Shown: positions 3,603 through 18,689 of the stretch, in pieces | Numbering within the stretch: the first letter of the stretch is position 1 | Layout of the letters: every line of letters starts with the position of its first letter | DNA from: a virus | DNA: 27,534 nt | IMG/VR virus record: IMGVR_UViG_3300049459_000259 | Coordinates: 1 to 27,534 of that record | Direction: 5' to 3' (one strand) | Program-made: the position numbers and the translations under genes | Notes under the pieces: generated by a model | The model's input: the letters and a program-made list of their open reading frames with translations, nothing else | What the model was told of the DNA's origin: nothing | Database searches by the model: none

Positions 3603-4784
3603 TCACACCCCCTTCACAACGTCGGCGGTCACCATCGGCGCGCCCAACTGCGTCGCAAGGTTCATCGCGGCAATCATCAAGTTGCCGATAGCCAGCGGGT
3701 ATAGCAGCGAGATGATTTCATCCCGGCCGCCGCGCCGGTCCGGTTGCGACAGGCGCGCCGCAATGGCCTGGATGCCGCTGTCGTCAATCACTTGCGCCAG
3801 CGCCTTGCCCGCCCGTTCGAAGCGAAACTTCAGGAACTCCTCCAGGCGGGCGCCCTCGATGGGGGGCAGCGTGACCCGCTCGCAGCGCTGCACCACTTCG
3901 CGCACATCGGCGTTGCGCTCGCTCAGCTTCACGCTCAGCTCGGGCTGGCCAATCATGATGATGCTCACCAGTTTGGTGAAACCCGTCTCCAGCTCCATAA
4001 AGCGCTTGAGGTGTTTAAGTGTCGGGATCGGCAGGCTGTGGGCCTCCTCGATCAGCAGGCAGTGACGAAAACCGGCCGCGTGGGACTCTTTGAGCGCCTT
4101 ATGCAACTGGGCAAAACGCGCCTCGGGACTGCTCTTGGGTTTCGACAGGGGCGCGACCGCCGCCATCATCGACTCGGCAATGTGGGTGCTCTTCAGCGAT
4201 TTGCCTTTGACATCGTTGTCCTCGGACGCCAGCACATAGGGCTCGATGATCAATACGGGGTCGTTGTGCTCCGCGATCCGGTTCACCAAGTCGCGGCGCA
4301 GCGTGCTTTTCCCGGCCCCCGATTCAGCCTCCACGGCCAGGAACCCGCCGTGCCGTGCGGTCTGGTACATCACCTCGCGCACGTAGCGAATATCCGGACT
4401 GACCCACATATCCTGGGCGCAGGAAACCTCATCGAAAGGATTACGAAACAGGCTGAACGCCTGGCGGGTTGATGGCAGTAACGTCTGCTTTGGCAGTAAC
4501 ATAGGTTCGTCCTCCCCGGACGGCTCATTGATTTGGGCCGGATCTGCCGTGTTGGCGCACGGCAGGTCCACTTCTTCAAAGGCGCTGGCGATGTCCGCAT
4601 CGTTGGCGCCTGACTCATTCAAGAACGCACGAATGCGCCCCTGTAACGCCTCACAGTCCAGGCTGCGCGGCCACAGGCCGTGGTTCAGCAATTGAGCGAT
4701 AGCGGCCCCGCTGAGCTTCAGCGACTCGGCCAGCGCCGACTGCGGCCGGCCTACCCCCTGTAAAACGTGTTTGAGCTTCAACAT
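3603..4784 (-). CDS. AAA ATPase, transposition protein B (MuB/ExeA-like)
   Basis: A 393-residue AAA+ ATPase that should act as the target-DNA-binding partner of the transposase, as MuB does for MuA. The N-terminal 45 residues form a helix-turn-helix (SALAESLKLSGAAIAQLLN), as in MuB. After a variable linker comes the ATPase core with Walker A (ESGAGKST, about 154-161), Walker B (CLLIEEAH, about 242-249) and a sensor I strand (IIMIGQPE, about 275-282). The C-terminal helical lid continues to the end. The core resembles the ExeA/TniB branch more than a chaperone. The ATG at 4784 is preferred to the GTG at 4787 because AGGAGG lies 6 nt upstream. The start overlaps the transposase stop (TGATG), a typical arrangement for these partners. 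Confidence 0.9.
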   Translation of the reverse strand: MLKLKHVLQGVGRPQSALAESLKLSGAAIAQLLNHGLWPRSLDCEALQGRIRAFLNESGANDADIASAFEEVDLPCANTADPAQINEPSGEDEPMLLPKQTLLPSTRQAFSLFRNPFDEVSCAQDMWVSPDIRYVREVMYQTARHGGFLAVEAESGAGKSTLRRDLVNRIAEHNDPVLIIEPYVLASEDNDVKGKSLKSTHIAESMMAAVAPLSKPKSSPEARFAQLHKALKESHAAGFRHCLLIEEAHSLPIPTLKHLKRFMELETGFTKLVSIIMIGQPELSVKLSERNADVREVVQRCERVTLPPIEGARLEEFLKFRFERAGKALAQVIDDSGIQAIAARLSQPDRRGGRDEIISLLYPLAIGNLMIAAMNLATQLGAPMVTADVVKGV

Positions 4785-6559
4785 CACTCGCCTCCTGCCG
4801 CGGCCCGCACCAGGCTGAGCGGCTTATGGGTGACCTCGACGGGCCGTTTTAGCTCGGCCTCTACGGCGTCAAGCTGCTCTAGGGCAATGCCCCGGGGGTA
4901 ATGCTGCTGTAACCATCTGAAGGCCTCGGCCGACCAGGTATCGGCCATGCGCGGGCGCAACAATTTCGCCGCCTCAACATGGGTCAATAACGCGTGCTCG
5001 ACGGTCGGCGCGTTGACGCTCAAGGACGTGCCTCGGCGCGGCAGGTAGGCCGGCAGCACGGTGTCGGTAACGTGTTTGTGCGGGTCGATCCGGCCGCCGA
5101 ACGGAATCGCTTTCGCCTTGCGGGCGGCTTCGGCCTGCGCCGCGCTGGCGGTGCCGGTGGCGACCTGCTCCAGCAACTGGCGCGAGACTTGTGCAGGGGT
5201 TTGCCCGTGGCGCTTGTACTGCTCGCCGATGGTGGCCGAGGTGTCGGCGAAGCCGAACTGATCCCGGCCGATGCGCTCGACGACGTGGTAATACTCCCGA
5301 CCGTCCTCGCCCGTTAATACGACGCTGGCTGAATCCTTATCCCGCCAGCAGTTACGGGCGATCAGCAGCTTTTCGCCGACCATCACCTGCGGCACCGCGC
5401 TGACGTCGAACTGATCCCCGCGAAACGAAACCCGCAACAGGTTGCTGACCTTGCGGTATTCCGGCGTACTGACCGCCAGCTCCCGACACACCTCGGCGCT
5501 CGGCGCCAGCCGTAGCTCGTTCGGCTTAATTAGTTGCCACACCCCGTAGCGGCTGCGGCCGGTGCGGGTATGGATCGCGGTGGCGTTGAAGTAGCGCATC
5601 CACTCGCCGGCCCAGCCGTTAATCTGCCCCAGGCTGTGAGCCGCCTGCAATTTCAGGGCGCTTTCAAACTCCCGCTCAACGATATTATGGGCCTGCTCCA
5701 CCTGGCCTTTAGCCCGGGCGTTGCCGACCTGGTTAATGATCAGCTCGATGGACATCGCCCGGCACAGGTTGCGAAAGATCCCGCTGGTCATCGCCGCCCC
5801 GGGGTCGGTCATCAGCATCCAGGGCACGCCGTGGAACGGGTCAGACGCGTGGCGTTTCTGCATGGCATTGATCAACACGCCGCACAGGTTCTCAGCCGAT
5901 TCCGCGCCCAGCACGTACTCGACATACAGCGTGCCGCTGGTGTGGTCGGTGATCACGTACCGCCACAGCCGTTGGCGCTCGATCTTCTTCAGGTTGCCCG
6001 GTTTCCCGTCATAGAACTCGGCCTGTTTCATCACCCGCACGCCGTCATCGGCCAGGTAAAACTGCGTTGAGATCGACGCGTCCACCTGCCACACGTGGTT
6101 GGGGTGTTTGCTGGCCAACGACACCGCGGGGGCATCCTGCAGTAGTTGTTCGGGGTGCAGCTTGTAGCCGCGCAAGGCGCGGCTGATGGCGCCGTTGGAA
6201 AGTGGGCGAAACTCGCCCGTGGCCTCATCCAGACGGCCCGCCGTGATCAGGTTGTTGCTGCGCAGGCGCTCGACCGCCCGCTCGATAGTCGACAGCTGCT
6301 TGTTATTCGCCCGGGTCGACTCCAGCAGCATGGCCGAGATCAGCCGGGCTTCGTGTAAAGGCAACATGCTGTTACCCGCGTCACTGCGGCGCTTACGGGG
6401 TTTACTCACCGAAACCTCCTTTAGCTTTCGTTGCAGGGTTTGAAGGGAAACGCCTAGCTCGGCGGCGCCCGCCTTATAAATGGCGGTGCGCTGCCCGTGG
6501 GGCGCATTGGCTGCGCGCCGGGCGATTTGGGCCAGTTGCTGGGTCTGCACCGGGTTCAT
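4784..6559 (-). CDS. Phage DDE transposase (transposition protein A)
   Basis: A 591-residue transposase for integration and replicative transposition. An N-terminal DNA-binding region (about 1-140) has a helix-turn-helix-like segment (YKAGAAELGVSLQTLQRKL) and a second one near 70-130. The retroviral integrase-type core shows D160 (VWQVDAS), D252 (LMTDPGAAM) and E288 (KGQVEQAHN), a D,D(35)E arrangement in which all three catalytic residues are present. A Mu-type C-terminal domain follows (about 370-470, with RVSFRGDQFDVS and YYHVVERIGRDQFGF). The lineage fits the Tn552/IS1604-like transposases of the BcepMu family rather than Mu A itself; this comes from family knowledge and a search would settle it. 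Its stop overlaps the ATPase gene. Confidence 0.93.
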   Translation of the reverse strand: MNPVQTQQLAQIARRAANAPHGQRTAIYKAGAAELGVSLQTLQRKLKEVSVSKPRKRRSDAGNSMLPLHEARLISAMLLESTRANNKQLSTIERAVERLRSNNLITAGRLDEATGEFRPLSNGAISRALRGYKLHPEQLLQDAPAVSLASKHPNHVWQVDASISTQFYLADDGVRVMKQAEFYDGKPGNLKKIERQRLWRYVITDHTSGTLYVEYVLGAESAENLCGVLINAMQKRHASDPFHGVPWMLMTDPGAAMTSGIFRNLCRAMSIELIINQVGNARAKGQVEQAHNIVEREFESALKLQAAHSLGQINGWAGEWMRYFNATAIHTRTGRSRYGVWQLIKPNELRLAPSAEVCRELAVSTPEYRKVSNLLRVSFRGDQFDVSAVPQVMVGEKLLIARNCWRDKDSASVVLTGEDGREYYHVVERIGRDQFGFADTSATIGEQYKRHGQTPAQVSRQLLEQVATGTASAAQAEAARKAKAIPFGGRIDPHKHVTDTVLPAYLPRRGTSLSVNAPTVEHALLTHVEAAKLLRPRMADTWSAEAFRWLQQHYPRGIALEQLDAVEAELKRPVEVTHKPLSLVRAAAGGE

Positions 6560-6562
6560 GGG

Positions 6563-7447
6563 TCAGGCCTCGGCCTGGCTCATCCACACCGGCGCATCGC
6601 CCTGGTGTTCAGGCAAATGAAATTCGCTGCGCACCTTCGCCAGCGTGATTTCAAGTTGGCGGATCAGATCCGCCTGATAGGTGCGGTGGTCCTGCCCCAG
6701 TTCTGAGGCGTGCTCCGCCATCTTGGAAAAGCCTTCGCGCAGTTCGCCGAGGATCTTGGACTCGATCTCAAAGTGCAGCCCGACCACCTCCGTGCGCAGT
6801 TGCTTAATCACTTCATCGGCGGGTAGGCCGTGTATGCGCTTGCGGACCACGTCCAACTCATCTTTGGTTTTTTGAAGATCCCCGGAACGTTTGGTCAATA
6901 CTTCGCCCTGGGCCTTATAGTCTTCTCGAACATCACGTAACGCGGCACGTAGCTCTCGACAACTCATACGGTCAATTTCATCAATGGTTAAGCCGACCAG
7001 CGTCCCACCTTCCGCAAGAGCTGCAAGCTCCTCATCGTCTTCAAGCATGAGGTCATAGAGCTTGGATTTGCCTAAATGCGAAAACGTTTTCGCATTTGAA
7101 AGAAGTGCCGGGGAAAGAAACTTTGCCGCAGCCTGAGCCATTTTCTGAGCAATACGTGGATCCAGGCCCAGTTGCTCTTGAATAATTTTCAGAAACTCAC
7201 CGTGACCTTCAATCTCTTTAAGAATGATCAACCGCTTCCCCGCCTCAAGCATCGCTTCAGCGCTTTGAGCCATGTAAAAGCGAGTTTCGTTCACCAGGCG
7301 GGTGCGGTCGTATGGAAGGCCGTCGCCGAAACGGGCCATCACTTCGGCGCTATTGCCGGCCATCAAGTTCTGATTGGCGGTGAGTACATCCCCGTCCAAT
7401 ACAGGCAATTCAATGGGGGTCGCCGCGGGGGCTTTGGTACGTGCCAT
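6563..7447 (-). CDS. DUF3102 family protein
   Basis: A 294-residue protein of the DUF3102 type, commonly encoded just upstream of the transposase in BcepMu-like phages. The N-terminal half holds the family region (about 45-130, including YDRTRLVNETRFYMAQSAEA, a helix, then KEIEGHGEFLKIIQEQLGLD), which resembles the DNA-binding part of some plasmid partition and Mu-like proteins. The C-terminal half (about 165-270) is long, charged and probably coiled coil. The ATG at 7447 has AGGAG about 6 nt upstream. Codons around 6850-7250 are less GC-rich than in neighbouring genes. A perfect 24-bp palindrome lies inside the gene at 7074-7097. A DNA-binding accessory role in transposition or partition-like organisation is plausible but unproven. 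Confidence 0.82.
   Translation of the reverse strand: MARTKAPAATPIELPVLDGDVLTANQNLMAGNSAEVMARFGDGLPYDRTRLVNETRFYMAQSAEAMLEAGKRLIILKEIEGHGEFLKIIQEQLGLDPRIAQKMAQAAAKFLSPALLSNAKTFSHLGKSKLYDLMLEDDEELAALAEGGTLVGLTIDEIDRMSCRELRAALRDVREDYKAQGEVLTKRSGDLQKTKDELDVVRKRIHGLPADEVIKQLRTEVVGLHFEIESKILGELREGFSKMAEHASELGQDHRTYQADLIRQLEITLAKVRSEFHLPEHQGDAPVWMSQAEA
7074..7097. repeat. Perfect 24-bp palindrome inside the DUF3102 gene
   Basis: The half-sequence AAATGCGAAAAC is followed directly by its exact reverse complement, with no loop and no mismatch over 24 bp. It lies in coding sequence (residues S-N-A-K-T-F-S-H) in an AT-richer part of the gene. A gapless palindrome of this length suits a dimeric protein binding site better than a hairpin terminator, since no T-run follows. 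Confidence 0.8.
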
Positions 7448-7457
7448 GGTGATCTCC

Positions 7458-7760
7458 TTAAATAATCGAGCCAGCGGCTATGCGCTGATTGACTTCCTGA
7501 ATACGCCCGGTCAGCCGGGCGACGTGTTCGGCGTGCGCCTGGGCGATCTGCAGCATCGCCACCGAGTGGGCGAAACGCCCGTTTTCCAACTTCACGGCCA
7601 ACCCTTCTTCAATCAGGGCCTGAACGGCGCGGGTGATGTTGCTGGGGCTGTCGTTGGTCAAATGGGCGAGTTCGGTATTGCTCAAGCCGGTCACGGTGTG
7701 CCCCTTCAGGGCTTTGAGTACGCGCAACACCCGGGCGGCGGAGGAAAAAGTCTGAGTCAT
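7458..7760 (-). CDS. Winged helix-turn-helix DNA-binding protein
   Basis: A 100-residue protein with a winged helix of the IclR/MarR N-terminal type: a helix (AARVLRVLKALKGH), the HTH (LSNTELAHLTNDSPSNITRA, about 26-46) and the wing (LIEEGLAVKLENGRFAHS, about 50-68). It ends in a short helical tail. There is no effector domain, so it is a minimal DNA binder, probably regulatory or architectural within the early programme. It starts at an ATG at 7760, 12 nt after the stop of the HTH gene at 7773-8024, and precedes the DUF3102 gene. Its operator is unknown. Confidence 0.82.
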   Translation of the reverse strand: MTQTFSSAARVLRVLKALKGHTVTGLSNTELAHLTNDSPSNITRAVQALIEEGLAVKLENGRFAHSVAMLQIAQAHAEHVARLTGRIQEVNQRIAAGSII

Positions 7761-8176: not shown

Positions 8177-8193
8177 GTGCCAAAAACTACACT
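8177..8193. promoter_or_regulatory. Second operator-like site over the repressor start codon
   Basis: GTGCCAAAAACTACACT begins at the repressor GTG and matches the main dyad in 13 of 17 positions, with a degenerate right half. Occupancy would interfere with repressor expression, consistent with autoregulation. Confidence 0.35.
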
Positions 8194-8626
8194 CGGCGAA
8201 CGCCTGAAAGAAGAGCGTGAGCGGTTGGGGTATACCCAGCCTGATTTTGCTGCCTTGGTGGGGGCTTCAAAACGCTCGCAAATCGGCTGGGAGCAAGGCC
8301 GCACAAGCCCCGACGCCTCGTCTCTTGCCCGGTGGGTGGAGATTGGCTTGGACGCGGTTTACGTCTTGAGTGGAGAGAAACCGGACGCCGGAAAAGTGCC
8401 AGAAAAAGCACCTTCAGACGGGGCGGAGCCGACACATTTAGTCGATGTTCAGCGATTGATCAGCATTGGCGAGATGCTAGAGGCTGCTGCCAAGCAGGCC
8501 GGTAAACGTTGGCCTGCCCGACAGCTGATCTCCAAAACAGCAGAGGTCTACAACTTTCTGGCCCAGGAAAAGGAGCTTGATAAGGCCCATGTAGACAGGG
8601 TGCTGAAATTGGTGGTCAGTCACTGA
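8177..8626 (+). CDS. XRE-family phage repressor (cI-like)
   Basis: A 149-residue protein with an N-terminal XRE/cI helix-turn-helix (about 5-62: LGERLKEERERLGYTQPDFA, then ASKRSQIGWEQGRTSPDASS and a helix ending in YVLSGEKP). A linker and a helical C-terminal part (about 85-149) follow, which probably mediate dimerisation. There is no LexA-type peptidase domain, so RecA-stimulated self-cleavage is not expected. The GTG at 8177 is chosen because AAGGA (8166-8170) lies 6 nt upstream; the open frame runs back to 7958 only because no stop intervenes. It diverges from the early operon and should maintain lysogeny by acting on the dyads around the early promoter. One dyad covers its own start codon, suggesting autoregulation. 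Confidence 0.88.
   Translation: MPKTTLGERLKEERERLGYTQPDFAALVGASKRSQIGWEQGRTSPDASSLARWVEIGLDAVYVLSGEKPDAGKVPEKAPSDGAEPTHLVDVQRLISIGEMLEAAAKQAGKRWPARQLISKTAEVYNFLAQEKELDKAHVDRVLKLVVSH
8396..8412. promoter_or_regulatory. Operator-like dyad inside the repressor gene
   Basis: GTGCCAGAAAAAGCACC matches the main operator-like sequence (8145-8161) at 15 of 17 positions, including both half-sites GTGCC and GCACC. It lies about 250 bp downstream within the coding region. An intragenic site at this distance could allow DNA looping between repressor dimers. A chance match is possible because it encodes ordinary linker residues. Confidence 0.4.
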
Positions 8627-8643
8627 AAAAAATAAGGAGCCGT

Positions 8644-9147
8644 ATGCGCAGTAAGGATGACGACTTGGTCCAGGATCTTTCCGCCCGCCTTACGGAGGAG
8701 ATCGGGAACTTGCCCGATGACGGTGAAGATCATGAATTGCGGATCAAGATAAAAGGCAGGGGCAATAAAACCAATATCAACCTGGGAAGCCAGACTTTTG
8801 AGATAAAGTCCGGGAAAGAATCCCCGCCGCGAAACAGCGACCGAGCCAAGCAGTGCCCTCAGTGCGGAAAATGCACTTGGCGATATACTCAATTGTGTAT
8901 GCATTGTGACTACGACTTACACCGCCACGACCAGATTGAGGCAGAAGAGCTCGCAGAGATTCAAAAAAACCAACATAACGCACGCCTGCTGAAAATAGGT
9001 GCGGCCTGCACTGTCGTAGCAATCGGCGGCTTCTCCCTGAGCAGCTATATTCCGGAAGGGCTTAAGAACTGGGCTATTGGGGCCGCCGCGGGAGCTGGCC
9101 TGCTGGCGTTTCTAATTATCCAGGGAATGGATACGAAATCTTCTTAA
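8644..9147 (+). CDS. Zinc-ribbon membrane protein, probable prophage cargo
   Basis: A 167-residue protein that I cannot place in a named family. The N-terminal ~65 residues are charged and soluble, with a short beta-rich segment (LRIKIKGRGNKTNINLGSQ). A zinc ribbon follows (CPQCGKC at about 72-78 and CMHCDYD at about 88-94, two CxxC knuckles), then a charged helix rich in Glu, Gln and His (HDQIEAEELAEIQKNQH). Two hydrophobic segments near the C-terminus (about 118-134 and 141-160) probably form a membrane hairpin. AAGGAG lies 5 nt before the ATG at 8644. It sits 17 bp after the repressor stop, on the same strand, so it could be expressed in the lysogen. Superinfection exclusion or another conversion function is a reasonable guess only. 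Confidence 0.75.
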   Translation: MRSKDDDLVQDLSARLTEEIGNLPDDGEDHELRIKIKGRGNKTNINLGSQTFEIKSGKESPPRNSDRAKQCPQCGKCTWRYTQLCMHCDYDLHRHDQIEAEELAEIQKNQHNARLLKIGAACTVVAIGGFSLSSYIPEGLKNWAIGAAAGAGLLAFLIIQGMDTKSS

Positions 9148-17323: not shown

Positions 17324-18589
17324 CTACCTTCTTTCGTAGTAGGCGTCGATATCGGACTCAAGCTGGCCGTCTATGACCCTCTCATCTTCAACAGTGAATT
17401 TTACTTCCGAGACTGTGTGCTGAGTTATTGAGTTGGGAACGAACTCTAATGCCGGCTTTCTTTCGCTGCGTTTACGCCCTTTAGCGCCGCGTTCACCGTC
17501 ACTGGCTATCGCGTGGGAGAACAACACAATGTTCTTGCCACCTTTGTGCTGCGACGACGCGTAAATCACCCCATCCACCGGAGGCTCGCATTCCGTGGCA
17601 AGAAATCCTGCGATGACCTGGGTTTTGAGATAATCAAGCTCCCCGCCAGGCAACACGGGCTGACTGATAAGGTTATGGAAAGTACGTAGAAACTTTCGCC
17701 GCTCGCTTTTGCTCCGATAGTCAGGATCGAAGTAGCTAAGGGTGTGACGTTCATAGGCGACTTCAAGAGCTGTGAAATCGAAGACCGAAATTTCACGCGT
17801 CAGCTTGAACTCTCCACTTATGACAACTCCCCCAACCGCCGGCCTAAGTTCGTAGATGCAGGTTTTGGGGGTCTCTAATGCACCATAGAAGGCGGGTATC
17901 CCCTTCGGACTCATTCGCCAATCTTTCGTAAGCTCTCGAGGAGGCGCAGCTAACTGCTTGGAGGGTTCATCGATAATCGCCTGGCCCTCTCGGGGCGATG
18001 TGGGTTTACGCGCTCGAAATATCTTCGTTTTATCATCGGGGCCCAAAGAGCGTAAGACACTAGTGCTGTGCCGGCCCGCGACCCTAAGATCAGAAATCCC
18101 AGTGAATAGTGAGCTTAGGTACTCTTCCGCCTTGCGGTTGAAGAAACGGTTTCTATGGGTGACACCATCAAGAAAATCAGCCCAGTCACGTTCTGCCCCT
18201 ACCGGCGCCAGCTCTTTGCGTACATAGGTCTCGGAATCAAAAAAACCTGCATCCCAGGCAGAAGCGTCGACAAGTTTGTCTTGAATTGCCCGGACAAGAT
18301 CATGATCTTCATTGAGCTGTAAAATTTCCCCGATGTAGAAAGCTTGCGAGTCACCTACGGGGTGATAGTAGGCGATGCGGTCTTTTTCCGGGTCCCATAC
18401 TTCGATCTCACCCCCCATTTCAAAGTAGTCCTGGAAGATCACAGCAACGTCCTGGACGAGGCTATCCAAGTTCATCGACTTTCGCCTTCCCCCGCAGATC
18501 GAGCATTCGGCGCTGCGCCTTGACTTCTTAATGACAGCCTTGAGGTACTCATCGCCCACGCATTTGTAGCAAACCGCTTCTTCGTCCAT
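17324..18589 (-). CDS. HEPN/RES N-terminal domain and RES domain protein, candidate toxin or phage defence cargo
   Basis: A 421-residue two-part protein on the strand opposite to the late genes. The N-terminal region opens with a zinc ribbon (C7-x2-C10 and C29-x2-C32) and continues with the helical HEPN/RES N-terminal domain 1, ending in DWADFLDGVTHRNRFF (about 135-150). The C-terminal RES domain (about 187-365) shows the three expected signature sites: Arg in KIFRARKP (R192/R194), Glu in YELRPAVGG (E247) and Ser in IYASSQ (S345/S346). RES domains degrade NAD and act as toxins in toxin-antitoxin pairs. No Xre/Xis antitoxin gene is next to it, so the HEPN part may sense infection or restrain activity. 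It is visibly AT-richer than its neighbours. The ATG at 18589 (GGGGA upstream) is preferred to 18601. Confidence 0.88.
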   Translation of the reverse strand: MDEEAVCYKCVGDEYLKAVIKKSRRSAECSICGGRRKSMNLDSLVQDVAVIFQDYFEMGGEIEVWDPEKDRIAYYHPVGDSQAFYIGEILQLNEDHDLVRAIQDKLVDASAWDAGFFDSETYVRKELAPVGAERDWADFLDGVTHRNRFFNRKAEEYLSSLFTGISDLRVAGRHSTSVLRSLGPDDKTKIFRARKPTSPREGQAIIDEPSKQLAAPPRELTKDWRMSPKGIPAFYGALETPKTCIYELRPAVGGVVISGEFKLTREISVFDFTALEVAYERHTLSYFDPDYRSKSERRKFLRTFHNLISQPVLPGGELDYLKTQVIAGFLATECEPPVDGVIYASSQHKGGKNIVLFSHAIASDGERGAKGRKRSERKPALEFVPNSITQHTVSEVKFTVEDERVIDGQLESDIDAYYERR

Positions 18590-18689
18590 TGATTTCCCCA
18601 TTGATCGCTAAGGCCATAGCCGTGAAAGGATCATCGCATCTACCGTTTGGTGGCCCAAATGATTTAGCACTTTCACTTTGGAGGGCACT

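Follow-up and report, generated by a model that had tools for sequence, protein, structure and literature searches.

A palindrome conserved in symmetry, not in sequence, within DUF3102-like genes of transposable phages is very probably a DNA site for the protein of the same gene

Why should a protein-coding gene of a phage contain a long perfect palindrome? The window studied here, the whole 27.5-kb stretch of an IMG/VR record of a B3-like (Mu-like) phage, carries a gapless perfect palindrome of 24 bp inside a DUF3102-like gene (Table 1), exactly where a first-pass annotation had placed it. The accompanying claim that such a palindrome is very unlikely by chance is borne out by an expectation of 0.003 gapless 24-bp palindromes per window from base composition, and no other perfect palindrome in the window is as long, the runner-up having 14 bp. 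The palindrome covers the end of codon S117, codons N118-H124 and the start of L125, and when these codons were recoded synonymously the observed pairing was matched in 0.2% of 2000 draws. With one more base on each side it becomes a 26-bp site, CAAATGCGAAAAC/GTTTTCGCATTTA, whose outermost pair is a C/A mismatch. The expectation that coding constraint would disfavour a palindrome was only partly right, in that the variable linker following the HTH appears free to host one. A further copy elsewhere in the phage, which the annotation had raised, was not found in the window with up to 3 mismatches allowed.

The gene belongs to a Mu-like early operon on the minus strand, where it immediately precedes transposase A; the operon runs from an IclR-type HTH gene through the DUF3102-like gene to transposase A and transposition protein B, an order as in Pseudomonas phage B3. 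Its product matches the PHROG 1748 profile with an E value of 8e-93 and Pfam DUF3102 with an E value of 0.002, under the gathering score; B3 ORF13 scores above that threshold, and 63 of the 68 family members match (best 5e-8). The predicted HTH lies about 15 codons ahead of the palindrome, and AlphaFold2 models this domain with a pLDDT of 94.6 and the full-length protein with 92.5. Foldseek searches with the whole protein and with the domain returned no related structure below E 1, and we found no paper on DUF3102 function or on this palindrome. Elsewhere in the window, within the late structural gene region and on the opposite strand (17324-18601, minus), is a gene for a RES-domain protein with a HEPN/RES N-terminal domain, a toxin- or defence-like cargo.

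Table 1. Features of the window with their positions, and sites of related phages; a slash marks the centre of a palindrome
Feature	Position	Strand	Sequence	Remarks
Palindrome	7074-7097	-	AAATGCGAAAACGTTTTCGCATTT = AAATGCGAAAAC/GTTTTCGCATTT	24 bp, gapless, perfect; within ORF 6563-7447 (-)
DUF3102-like gene, PHROG 1748	6563..7447	-		294 aa; HTH domain and long coiled coil; probable site reader
Predicted HTH recognition helix codons, aa 97-110	7118..7159	-	PRIAQKMAQAAAKF	AlphaFold2
Q101, co-varying with half-site	7145-7147	-
K102, co-varying with half-site	7142-7144	-
Transposase A, rve domain	4784..6559	-		directly downstream of DUF3102-like gene, same operon; homologous to B3ORF12 by gene order
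Transposition protein B, AAA ATPase	3603..4787	-
IclR-type HTH protein	7458..7760	-		upstream of DUF3102-like gene; alternative reader, unsupported
Divergent repressor-like gene	8178..8626	+	GERLKEERERLGYTQPDF...	start codon estimated
B3 in-gene palindrome			CAAAACGGACAAC/GTTGTCCGTTTTG	same codons as window site
Ps59 in-gene palindrome, arm			CAAAAGCGCCAAC/	same codons
KP12 in-gene palindrome, arm			CAAAAGCGCAAGC/	same codons
PhiKM in-gene palindrome, arm			CAAAACGCTCAGC/	same codons
Mae-JY22 in-gene palindrome, arm			CAAAACGGGCGGC/	same codons
Ps60 site			CAAATGTG...CACATTTG	helix A, GTG; in repressor gene; no in-gene site
L275 site			CAAATGTC	helix V, GTC; no in-gene site; fits
L276 site			CATATCGG	helix R, CGG; no in-gene site; fits
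L281 site			CAAATGCG	helix Q, GCG; no in-gene site; fits
L274 site				helix K, GGT; new class; no in-gene site
L277 site				helix G, TCG; new class; no in-gene site

In homologous DUF3102-like genes of transposable phages the palindrome is kept as a palindrome and not as a sequence. The homologues carry 24-26 bp palindromes of the form CAAAN9/N9'TTTG at equivalent codons and in a constant reading frame, many of them with arms that differ and are nevertheless complementary, and both position and frame are orthologous among proteins down to about 33% identity. A profile search added about 80 IMG/VR phage loci, and in nearly all of them 11-13 of the 13 pairs form at that place. Across 67 distinct in-gene palindromes the mean pairing was 12.2 of 13 versus 5.6 under synonymous recoding, each case lying below 1%. 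A search of IMG/VR with the pattern CAAATGCGN10CGCATTTG hit at least 120 stretches, compared with a chance expectation of about 10 that rests on a rough guess of the collection size; among the matches listed, at least four of the five free pairs were complementary in 108 of 126 places, and 72 places lay in DUF3102-like genes. The same pattern occurred three times in 299 Pseudomonadota genomes, once in a DUF3102-like phage gene. The first-pass annotation had proposed nucleotide-level conservation beyond the amino acids as a sign of function, and loss by synonymous changes in close relatives as a sign against it; such loss was not seen in the relatives. What is conserved is the symmetry, and where the arms vary both change together.

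The identity of the bases in the arms follows the protein. In more than 100 relatives the DUF3102-like protein and the palindrome co-vary, and the half-site triplet occupying positions 8-6, counted from the centre, varies with the recognition-helix residue at the position of window Q101: Q goes with GCG (72 cases; rarely ACG), R with CGG or CGC (21 cases), V or A with GTG (6 cases for V, which has ATG once) and H with GTC. The next residue (window K102) tracks position 4, which is mostly C with R, mostly A with L, V, M or H, and either with K. An apparent helix class A proved to be partly a parsing error of RAAR and RAAQ, which by eye are R and Q. With a tree built from the C-terminal part of the protein alone, phylogenetically independent pairs agreed in 8 of 8 supported pairs for R/Q versus C/G (p 0.008), in about 6 of 8 for V/A versus T (p ~0.03) and in about 9 of 12 for R at the next residue versus C (p 0.004), the last two comparisons having no opposite pair. 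All columns of the DUF3102, IclR, TnpA and TnpB proteins at 62 loci were also scanned for normalised information with the site. The helix column reached 0.82, the columns encoded by the palindrome itself 0.88 and 0.40, and the remaining DUF3102 columns at most 0.31. No column of IclR, TnpA or TnpB tracks the site (best 0.16), for which reason these three were rejected as site readers. Of the binding partners that the annotation had offered, the product of the gene itself is thus strongly supported by the co-variation of HTH and site, and the HTH protein encoded upstream is not supported. The other roles it had offered, an internal transposition enhancer or a centromere-like site, would be compatible with these data.

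Two features of the data bear on how this code is to be read. Since pattern searches that fix GCG select for Q, the unselected cases are only Ps60, L275, L276 and L281; and since the HTH and the site lie close together, block recombination inflates their co-variation. The second concern is addressed by five cases in which the code held with the site kilobases away from the HTH codons, namely these four and L010, a contig of 86 kb that was retrieved solely through an exact match and whose distant DUF3102-like protein has the Q/L that the code predicts. Where the gene has no palindrome of its own (Ps60, L274-L277 and L281), the coding sequence of the repressor holds the site, at a distance of about 2-3.6 kb from the HTH codons. 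Four counterexamples, all with GCG, have A (L197), T (L221), E (L236) or R (L235) in the helix, and L235 directly contradicts the rule.

Being separated by about 70 bp within a single gene, reader and site also move between phages together. When the B3 and Ps59 genes are compared by 60-nt blocks, identity is 95-100% for most blocks and 85-90% at two edges, and it falls to 63% over nt 241-420, the segment that holds the HTH (nt 291) and the palindrome (nt 349-374). Relatives of KP12 show the same dip.

We infer from these patterns that the palindrome is very probably a double-stranded DNA site bound by the protein of the same gene. A DUF3102-like dimer would place one HTH recognition helix on each half-site, CAAA would be the constant outer part, and Q101 and K102 would read positions 8-6 and position 4 from the centre, respectively. 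Reader and site would then be swapped jointly as a specificity cassette. A different HTH may have a comparable partner in the JBD18-like subfamily (L023/L146 and 17 other genes), in which an odd-centred palindrome, NNAC(G)GTNN, lies in the linker at a fixed distance before a GTWEEF HTH. The recognition-helix residues that its arms appear to follow are M/L, R, E and Q, with GAAC accompanying ...A[DN][ML]D, GCAC ...VDRD, GAC ...[DN]ED and AAC ...A[DN]QD. Pairing is 6.7 of 8 versus 4.0 under synonymous recoding, with the centre chosen by best score, which is support for a second reader/site system and not proof of one. Separately, the transposase B genes of JBD18 and Ps60 have covarying 12-bp GC-rich hairpins in the same place, with the loop TTGGCG in both (L146:5964-5993 and L145:5406-5435).

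Sites occur mostly once per genome, within the DUF3102-like gene. Ps60-like phages have theirs in the repressor gene, on the divergent repressor strand, and the equivalent repressor-like gene of the window has none; in an enterobacterial-type group (L192, L216, L260, L261) the site falls at the A/B junction, right after transposase A. Most near-complete contigs with a site outside the DUF3102-like gene nonetheless encode a DUF3102-like protein, which was undetectable in three site-bearing contigs of 33-39 kb; no site was found in the stretches scanned of Bise, L139, L141 and L142. Mae-JY22 has three identical palindromes.

Several further arrangements were seen. The two additional Mae-JY22 copies (L147:8585-8608 and 8629-8654) each encode KRAAPPVL, both in the linker at the N terminus of a staphylococcal-nuclease-like (SNase) protein. 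Between a phage repressor gene and its neighbour, the record of L111/L177 (L150, 1100-1560) has about 11 short palindromes of two designs, five or six of them of the CAAA...TTTG design and the others resembling NGAGYCNC...AAAATT... stems. A small metagenome contig (L237:347-790) has four CAAATGCG palindromes in about 450 bp. In L009 (6706-6731) and L011, where no DUF3102-like gene was found, an exact CAAATGCGAAAAC/GTTTTCGCATTTG is nested in a longer stem followed by a T-run. The exact 24-mers of L009-L011 were considered as chance terminators; this was dropped as the full 26-mer is present and L010 encodes the distant protein with Q/L.

The purpose of binding we infer solely from where the sites lie. 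Their position varies by group and stays within the early region, which suits a loading or architectural role better than a single fixed regulation of the promoter type. We tentatively favour a loading site of the ParB/parS kind, by analogy, at which the coiled-coil protein would assemble in the early region while the phage transposes replicatively, so as to pair, condense or self-mark the phage DNA. Transposable phages may possess a centromere-like module independent of ParB, a proposal that we hold with similar reserve: a coiled-coil HTH protein would load on a palindrome in its own gene, the repressor gene or the A/B genes and organise or self-mark the DNA in replicative transposition, with cassette swaps giving rise to classes of site specificity.

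A possible, somewhat less likely purpose is mainly transcription control: the bound protein would act as a roadblock, either autoregulating DUF3102-A-B from a site within its own gene or shutting off the repressor from a site within the repressor gene. The DUF3102-like gene, the repressor gene and the A/B junction are all transcribed switch regions; however, sites in these three locations would regulate different genes, the conserved position is in a coding linker far from promoters, and several genomes have their sites in unrelated genes or arrays. Even so, transcription control would still be compatible with binding as such. A transposition enhancer-like element, where the DUF3102-like protein would aid transposase synapsis as the Mu internal enhancer does with MuA, is an unlikely role for the site. 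In all groups seen the DUF3102-like gene shares an operon with A and B, and the site never lies outside the early region near A; the Mu enhancer, which is bound by MuA, adjoins the repressor gene (PMC5977238); yet no TnpA column tracks the site, and the B3 half-sites are absent from the phage ends. A related candidate, a transposase-end site, was rejected since the half-sites of B3, Ps59, PhiKM and Mae have no match (up to 2 mismatches) at the phage ends. The half-site does resemble part of the MuA end consensus.

An RNA hairpin in the early mRNA, with pairing selected for an attenuator, terminator or processing site, would also preserve complementarity through sequence change, the A-run and T-run arms recall terminators, and the 26-mer of L009 and L011 is within a terminator-like stem. 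Against this, 51 sense-strand mismatches included 16 G·T or T·G and 15 A·C or C·A, so wobble is not favoured; the two central pairs, which would be the loop, are 87% and 97% complementary; the arms follow HTH residues; and other genes, as well as the strand of the divergent repressor, carry sites too. As G·T and A·C mismatches are about equally frequent, a double-stranded DNA site is preferred and the hairpin is very improbable. A mobile palindromic element inserted in frame and functionless for the phage, which the two extra Mae-JY22 copies in the SNase gene and the L150 array after the repressor gene might suggest, is the least credible reading of all, given that position and frame are orthologous at low protein identity, that the copies share symmetry and outer bases rather than sequence and follow the reader protein, and that hosts are without copies apart from the three pattern matches noted above.

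If the palindrome is a site for the protein of its own gene, an unstudied family adjoining the transposase in very many transposable phages can be assigned a probable biochemical activity, and its amino acid-to-base specificity becomes readable as a code. Ordinary alignment would miss cis-acting DNA sites of this sort, which lie inside coding sequence and conserve their symmetry. The old question of extra factors for the replicative transposition of B3-like phages becomes testable by binding and mutation.

The closest known parallel is ParB/parS (chromosomal Spo0J, F SopB, P1 ParB and RK2 KorB), which likewise pairs a dimeric HTH protein with a palindromic cis site near its gene, the pairing being suggested here by co-variation. 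In Bacillus subtilis a parS lies inside the spo0J (parB) gene itself. Some replicons have several parS sites (PMC5002424). RcapMu has a ParB_N protein in a similar slot near the transposase (RcapMu13 matches ParB_N), and in Roseobacter Mu-like phages an annotated ParB occupies a slot near transposase A (PMC5488378). The first 16 kb of RcapMu, which has a real ParB near its transposase, contain no comparable palindrome. The window protein differs in its long coiled coil, and its site sequence varies from phage to phage; neither it nor its relatives match the ParB_N (CTPase) domain, and no ParA gene was recognised in the window's early operon. An hhalign comparison of DUF3102-like proteins with the Pseudomonas ParB HTH, for which the ParB set was of low diversity, gave no match, and in fold comparison with HTH-DNA complexes SopB (Z 4.7) and P1 ParB (Z 3.4) both scored low. 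The DUF3102-like protein may work like ParB/parS, but we do not file it as a ParB because the fold Z scores are low and ParB_N is absent. KfrA-type plasmid proteins, which combine an HTH with a long coiled coil and have operators at promoters, are alike in layout, whereas the DUF3102-like site is in coding sequence. The Mu enhancer/operator region offers another case of a transposable phage with a cis site internal to its early control region, but the DUF3102 site changes in step with a separate protein, whose gene in most cases contains it. Finally, in the specificity classes of phage operators and repressors, site and recognition helix also change together to give classes; here, in contrast, a single gene holds both reader and site, which travel together as a block.
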